In this document: positions 34,272 through 35,794 of the stretch, one piece after another
How positions within the stretch are numbered: position 1 is the first letter of the stretch
How the letters are laid out: every line of letters starts with the position of its first letter
NCBI GenBank assembly: GCA_019690095.1
Contig: JADGGD010000007.1
Span: 1 to 50,185 of the forward strand
Reading direction: 5' to 3'
DNA from: Chloroflexota bacterium
GTDB lineage: Bacteria > Chloroflexota > UBA6077 > FW602-bin22 > CADDYW01
Length of the DNA: 50,185 nucleotides
Translations under genes and position numbers: made by a program
The notes under the pieces: model-generated
The model's input: only the letters and a program-made list of their open reading frames with translations
The model's database searches: none
What the model was told of the DNA's origin: nothing

Positions 34272-34279
34272 GCTATACT
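34272..34279 (+). promoter_or_regulatory. Extended -10 promoter of the selenoprotein gene
   Basis: TGCTATACT contains an extended -10 (TG, one base, TATACT at 34274-34279). No good -35 is visible, as is common with extended -10 promoters. The expected leader of about 30 bases includes GGGAGG at 34302-34307, 7 bases before the ATG. Confidence 0.55.
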
Positions 34280-34314
34280 AAGGTGTGTCAATCACCAGAA
34301 TGGGAGGGACACCC

Positions 34315-34581
34315 ATGGCGGATAAGAAGCTCAGCATTACCATCACCTACTGCATCCCCTGAAAGACCTGGTCACGGGCCGCCTGGATGGCGACCGAGCT
34401 GATCAGCCGCTTCCCCGACCAGATCGAGGAGATCACCCTGCGAGGCGGCCACGGTGGTGCCTTTGAGGTCAGCATCGACGGCCAGCAGGTCTTCTCGAAG
34501 CTCCAGTCCAACCGCTATCCCGAATTGAACGAACTCATCGAGCCAATCCGTCGTCGGCTGGAAGCCCCGACGTCGGCCTGA
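34315..34581 (+). CDS. SelW/Rdx-type selenoprotein, UGA read as selenocysteine
   Basis: An 88-residue thioredoxin-like redox protein if the in-frame TGA at 34360-34362 is read as selenocysteine (residue 16). It begins MADKKLSITITYCIP; the TGA follows, then KTWSRAAWMATELISRF continues in the same frame to a TGA stop at 34581. SelW/Rdx proteins carry a CxxC or CxxU motif after the first beta strand followed by a helix with RAAW-A-ELL. Here Cys13 and the TGA at 16 give exactly C-x-x-U. The rest (EITLRGGHGGAFEVSIDGQQVFSKLQ, then YPELNELIEPIRRRL) matches the family's second half. GGGAGG and an extended -10 promoter precede it. Taken as starting at 34387, it would lose its active site. A nonsense pseudogene is less likely but possible; sel genes are not in the window. 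Confidence 0.85.
34377..34395 (+). promoter_or_regulatory. Bacterial SECIS-like hairpin
   Basis: GGCCGCC pairs with GGCGACC (7 positions, one C-A mismatch) around a 5-base loop TGGAT with G in its second position. The loop starts 21 bases after the TGA, inside the coding sequence. Bacterial SECIS elements lie immediately downstream of UGA, have a small apical loop with a G in its first two positions, and recruit SelB. All three properties are met. Confidence 0.65.
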
Positions 34582-35338: not shown

Positions 35339-35794
35339 CTACAGCCGACCGGTCGCCTCGGCGCCGGTTGTCTCGTCAATCACCCGATACGCCTCAGTGA
35401 TCCGGGCGACCTTCCCCAGCATGGCCGAGGCCGGGCAGTAGCGCGTTGCCGAGAGCTCGACCGCCCGCCGCACGGCCTCCGGGCTCACCGCGTGCCCGCG
35501 CACCACGTGCTCGACGGTGATCGCGGTGAAGACCCGGGGATGGGTCTCGGCGCGACTGCCCTGCAGACGCACCTCGTAGGCGGTGACCTCCTGGCGCATC
35601 TTGCGCAGGATGCTGATCACGTCCATACCGGTGCAGCCGCCCAGCGCAAGGAGCATCAGCTCGAGCGGGCGCGGCCCCCGATTCTGCCCCCCGACATCTT
35701 CTGCCGCATCCAGAACGAGCTGGTGACCGCTCCCCGCAGTCGCCTCGAAGGACATTCCCTCGATCAGCCGAACAGTGCCTTCAAGATCGTCCAT
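35339..35794 (-). CDS. OsmC/Ohr-family peroxiredoxin-like protein
   Basis: A 151-residue cytoplasmic thiol peroxidase family member that reduces organic hydroperoxides using two cysteines. Cys54 (LLALGGCTGMDVISILRKMRQ) is the peroxidatic residue and Cys120 (ATRYCPASAML) the resolving one, both in the usual settings. The sequence looks like the YhfA/OsmC branch rather than Ohr. The ATG has only a modest GGAG site. A 14-codon open frame with its own AAGGAG starts at 35808 and overlaps the gene start in another frame. Genes on either side are unrelated. Confidence 0.9.
   Translation of the reverse strand: MDDLEGTVRLIEGMSFEATAGSGHQLVLDAAEDVGGQNRGPRPLELMLLALGGCTGMDVISILRKMRQEVTAYEVRLQGSRAETHPRVFTAITVEHVVRGHAVSPEAVRRAVELSATRYCPASAMLGKVARITEAYRVIDETTGAEATGRL

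Follow-up and report, generated by a model that had tools for sequence, protein, structure and literature searches.

Does a TGA in a short Rdx gene encode selenocysteine?

The window, the whole stretch of 50,185 nucleotides of Chloroflexota DNA that was analysed, contains a small reading frame with a TGA triplet at 34360–34362, and the question raised by this locus is whether the triplet ends a protein or is read as selenocysteine (Sec). A first-pass annotation made from the letters alone had favoured Sec, placing the TGA at the second redox Cys of a CxxC motif in a SelW/Rdx protein. In our reading, to which we assign a probability of about 0.97, the gene encodes an 88-residue SelW/Rdx-type CxxU redox protein in which UGA 34360 is decoded as Sec by means of SelD, SelA, SelB and a downstream stem-loop. 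The features concerned, all on the forward strand, are the following.

34302–34307 (+): Shine-Dalgarno-like GGGAGG, spaced 7 nt from the start codon and visible in the sequence itself
34315–34581 (+): predicted selenoprotein gene of the Rdx/SelW-like family, encoding 88 residues with Sec as the sixteenth, from translation with TGA as U and matches to PF10262 and TIGR02174
34351–34362 (+): CIPU redox motif (TGC ATC CCC TGA), aligned with the CxxC/CxxU of 66 relatives
34360–34362 (+): putative Sec-encoding TGA, codon 16; 39 Rdx genes in the phylum have TGA here, whereas the solved relatives 2oka and 2obk have Cys
34378–34394 (+): SECIS-like hairpin, from folding, covariation in 22 relatives and the bSECIS constraints of PMC13188914
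34387–34581 (+): truncated 64-aa ORF given by standard calling, devoid of the active site, from the mechanical ORF list
34579–34581 (+): true stop, also TGA; orthologues show no conservation beyond it

The gene starts with ATG at 34315 and, with the TGA kept open, its product reads MADKKLSITITYCIPUKTWSRAAWMATELISRFPDQIEEITLRGGHGGAFEVSIDGQQVFSKLQSNRYPELNELIEPIRRRLEAPTSA. CIPU occupies residues 13–16, and alignment with relatives places the TGA exactly at the second redox position, as first proposed. The family assignment also held, with residues 8–79 matching PF10262 (Rdx) of Pfam at 83.3 bits (cut-off 22.6) and the protein matching TIGR02174, which NCBI names CXXU_selWTH (a model of SelT/SelW/SelH), at 67.2 bits (cut-off 34.2). 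The solved bacterial Rdx proteins 2oka and 2obk, which carry Cys at the TGA position, match as well, and homology to these chains predicts a thioredoxin-like fold. In agreement with the first-pass annotation, the ribosome-binding site is good, and the standard ORF takes the internal ATG at 34387 as its start and leaves out the redox motif. The good promoter that it had also described was not recovered: a simple sigma-70 scan found none, only a lone TATACT (34274–34279) resembling a -10 box. No terminator was found, and an Rfam scan of the region returned only a chance miRNA match. An OsmC-like protein in Cys form lies near the Rdx gene (35339–35794, reverse strand), recognized by eye from its translation alone.

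Conservation of the TGA and of a downstream hairpin

When 101 genomes from the phylum were searched with PF10262, 67 places were taken into the alignment, one of which runs off its contig. Among the 66 that could be classified, the second motif position is TGA in 39 and Cys in 27, and in all 39 TGA forms the triplet stands at CxxU and nowhere else inside the domain. Orthologues with TGA at the same codon occur in three genomes of the same order; the closest (64% identity) belongs to the same family and comes from a Chloroflexi MAG of Centralia origin, and the other two share 49% and 47%. Recurrence of the TGA at this codon in these genomes and in 39 of the 66 Rdx genes excludes chance or an isolated error. 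None of the three has another stop in the domain, so the scattered disruptions that might have been expected of a decaying gene are missing while the TGA is kept. After the TGA, pN and pS are 0.16 and 0.58 against the closest orthologue, and 0.11 and 0.51 between the other two; before it, the sequence is also conserved as protein. These patterns indicate purifying selection on both sides of the TGA, in line with the coding quality ascribed to the flanking sequence. The TGA form co-occurs with selA, which scored above its cut-off in all 37 genomes with a TGA-form Rdx and in 47 of the 64 genomes lacking one (Fisher P = 1.7e-4, uncorrected for shared ancestry).

A contig search with the single Rdx protein as query returned no matches; with an alignment of the four orthologues as query it returned three Chloroflexi MAG orthologues, which are the genomes already counted above (G001, G005 and G011) and not new ones. 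In one of these, G011, a pair of distinct Sec-form Rdx genes occurs together with a single Cys form (L034, L065 and L074). Within about 1.5 kb on either side of the three orthologues, none of the neighbours that the Rdx gene has in the window was detected, so genomic context gives no help with function.

Directly downstream of the TGA, 34380–34383 pair with 34389–34392 in a 4-bp upper stem, the next outer pair (C-A) being unformed, around a 5-nt apical loop, UGGAU (34384–34388), with G at loop position 2. The hairpin lies 21 nt from the TGA, and the 51-nt stretch that contains it folds at -18.7 kcal/mol. A published bSECIS model (PMC13188914) describes an apical loop of 3–9 nt with G in the first two places, an upper stem of 4–16 bp, a distance of 16–37 nt from the UGA and a minimum free energy of at most -7.5 kcal/mol; the Rdx hairpin agrees with it in loop, G, stem, spacing and energy. 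The fold z-score of the stretch is modest (-1.8 with dinucleotide and -2.5 with synonymous shuffling).

Comparative evidence for the hairpin came from 22 TGA forms that share one register (type A, stem columns 19–24 with 30–35), in which the stem is paired in 89% of cells. Eleven cells in this set, which was chosen after the sequences had been inspected, changed on both sides of the stem vs 2.6 expected from shuffling; 0 of 500 shuffles reached eleven, and controls slid along the alignment gave at most two double-changed cells. The double changes run through C-G, U-A and G-C at one pair and C-G and U-A at another; as the stem lies within a coding region, codon choice shapes part of this signal. 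Over all 30 TGA forms the signal is weaker (79% of cells paired, four double changes) and the RNAalifold consensus is weak (-0.86 kcal/mol), because two hairpin registers occur, the stem of the GTGAGC forms lying about four bases nearer the TGA. The SelW-like forms with GTGAGC after the TGA in which the SECIS-like hairpin appears to be shifted in this way include L038, L040, L049, L054, L063, L065, L068 and L071, among others. Relative to synonymous-codon shuffles, TGA forms are more stable (mean z -0.69) than Cys forms, which show no excess (-0.08; P = 0.005).

Selenocysteine machinery and the decoding of the TGA

The source genome is a 3.8-Mb MAG of 403 contigs (94.8% complete, 5.3% contamination), the window being contig C148. 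All four components that the first-pass annotation had suggested searching for are present in it: selA (564 bits, C276), selB (full-length, 357 bits, C23), selD (370 bits, C35) and a tRNA-Sec (69.6 bits, C294) with anticodon tca (UCA) by ARAGORN. In this draft MAG the sel genes sit on contigs separate from the window. Their contigs have a GC content of 0.64–0.68 vs 0.67 for the window, and SelA identity to the protein of this genome is 66–71% in three same-family genomes, 53–59% in the tested genomes of the order and 48–53% in those of the phylum, a rise with kinship that fits a native gene and not contamination.

The selD gene is split between two contigs with an exact 99-base overlap (L058 on C35 and L059 on C400) and itself contains an in-frame TGA, in the context MDEQIRLTGFSHGAG-U-ACKLGP (GAG-U-ACK), the known Sec/Cys position of SelD. 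By its sequence, SelD of this genome would be a selenoprotein too, and contig annotation would truncate it. A formate dehydrogenase alpha(-like) gene (L099:1501-2247, C147:4680-5426) has a single in-frame TGA in NQARIUHSSTVPGLG, at QARIUHSST, the Sec site of formate dehydrogenase. The first-pass annotation, which had credited the organism with a Sec system for at least one redox protein, therefore understated the case, SelD and formate dehydrogenase carrying Sec TGAs as well; the full system appears to serve at least three proteins.

Could the TGA nevertheless be a true stop, produced by a nonsense mutation or a sequencing error in a Cys gene, so that the locus is a pseudogene or encodes just the truncated 64-residue protein? 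A single base change turns TGC into TGA, the genome is a draft MAG, and standard ORF calling does begin at 34387. Yet orthologues in three further genomes of the order have the same TGA and no other stop in the domain, the sequence ahead of it is conserved as protein, and the Sec machinery is complete, all of which makes a true stop very improbable. A pseudogene or sequencing error was rejected on the conservation of the TGA in other genomes. A reassigned code, with TGA read as another amino acid such as Trp, has precedent in some bacterial lineages, but here we regard it as the more far-fetched of the two: the gene's own stop is TGA, Trp is encoded twice by TGG, the UGA-reading tRNA in this genome is tRNA-Sec, and in Rdx, SelD and formate dehydrogenase alike TGA occupies a position where Sec is known. 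Reading TGA as Trp was discarded on the first two of these points.

Decoding as Sec, the preferred reading, draws on the sel genes, the conserved TGA, the SECIS-like hairpin and the co-occurrence with selA. The gene, its motif, their conservation, the SECIS-like hairpin and the complete machinery are shown by the sequences. We infer from sequence that Sec is inserted at codon 16 and that the product has a redox role. SelD would supply selenophosphate and SelA would convert Ser-tRNA-Sec to Sec-tRNA-Sec; SelB, while attached to the stem-loop that immediately follows the UGA, would deliver Sec-tRNA-Sec to the ribosome, and the UGA at 34360 would be translated as selenocysteine, residue 16. The product would be a small thioredoxin-like protein, most likely using a reversible Cys13-Sec16 selenenylsulfide for redox chemistry of the thiol-disulfide or peroxide-linked type. 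Standard annotation of this genome thus deprives a redox protein of its active site.

Sec and Cys forms, and relation to known SelW-like proteins

A tree of the 66 short sequences, unrooted and built on few columns, unites the four order-level Sec orthologues with good support, on a long branch, and places 26 of the 27 Cys forms in a second clade; the remaining Cys form lies within a Sec group. We tentatively consider, as a rather doubtful proposal, that the gene and its three orthologues make up a Sec-only Rdx subfamily of their own (CxPU[KR]TWxRAAWMA) and that Sec is the prevailing, possibly ancestral, Rdx state across Chloroflexota, Cys having arisen at no more than two points of the tree. 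The Cys form within a Sec group (L066, G022:C364:1425-1640) keeps a hairpin, GTCGCC-CTGAA-GGCGAC, close to where a SECIS would lie; it may be a fossil one, left after a Sec-to-Cys change.

The gene belongs to a long-known kind of protein. SelW-like proteins were one of 25 bacterial selenoprotein families, with 10 Sec members, in a 2006 count (Zhang et al, 2006; PMC1794560), and 427 SelW-like selenoproteins were found in the GOS marine metagenomes (PMC2398784), so a further one is unsurprising; its value lies in annotation and in further material on how Sec and Cys replace each other in Chloroflexota. Like the proteins of those two surveys, it combines an Rdx domain, Sec as the second residue of CxxC and a bSECIS-like hairpin directly past the UGA, and it differs from them in lineage alone, a small order-level Chloroflexota clade with the wording given above. 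With the solved Cys members of Rdx (PF10262/TIGR02174; 2oka, 2obk, 2fa8 and 2p0g) it shares the domain, the motif position and a similar W-x-x-RAAW region, whereas their second Cys is replaced by Sec in this protein. Two Cys-form paralogues of the same genome (C16:15523-15744 and C391:1360-1578) belong to the same family but have a CxEC motif, HSMYRDGG wording and no TGA, and fall in a separate clade.
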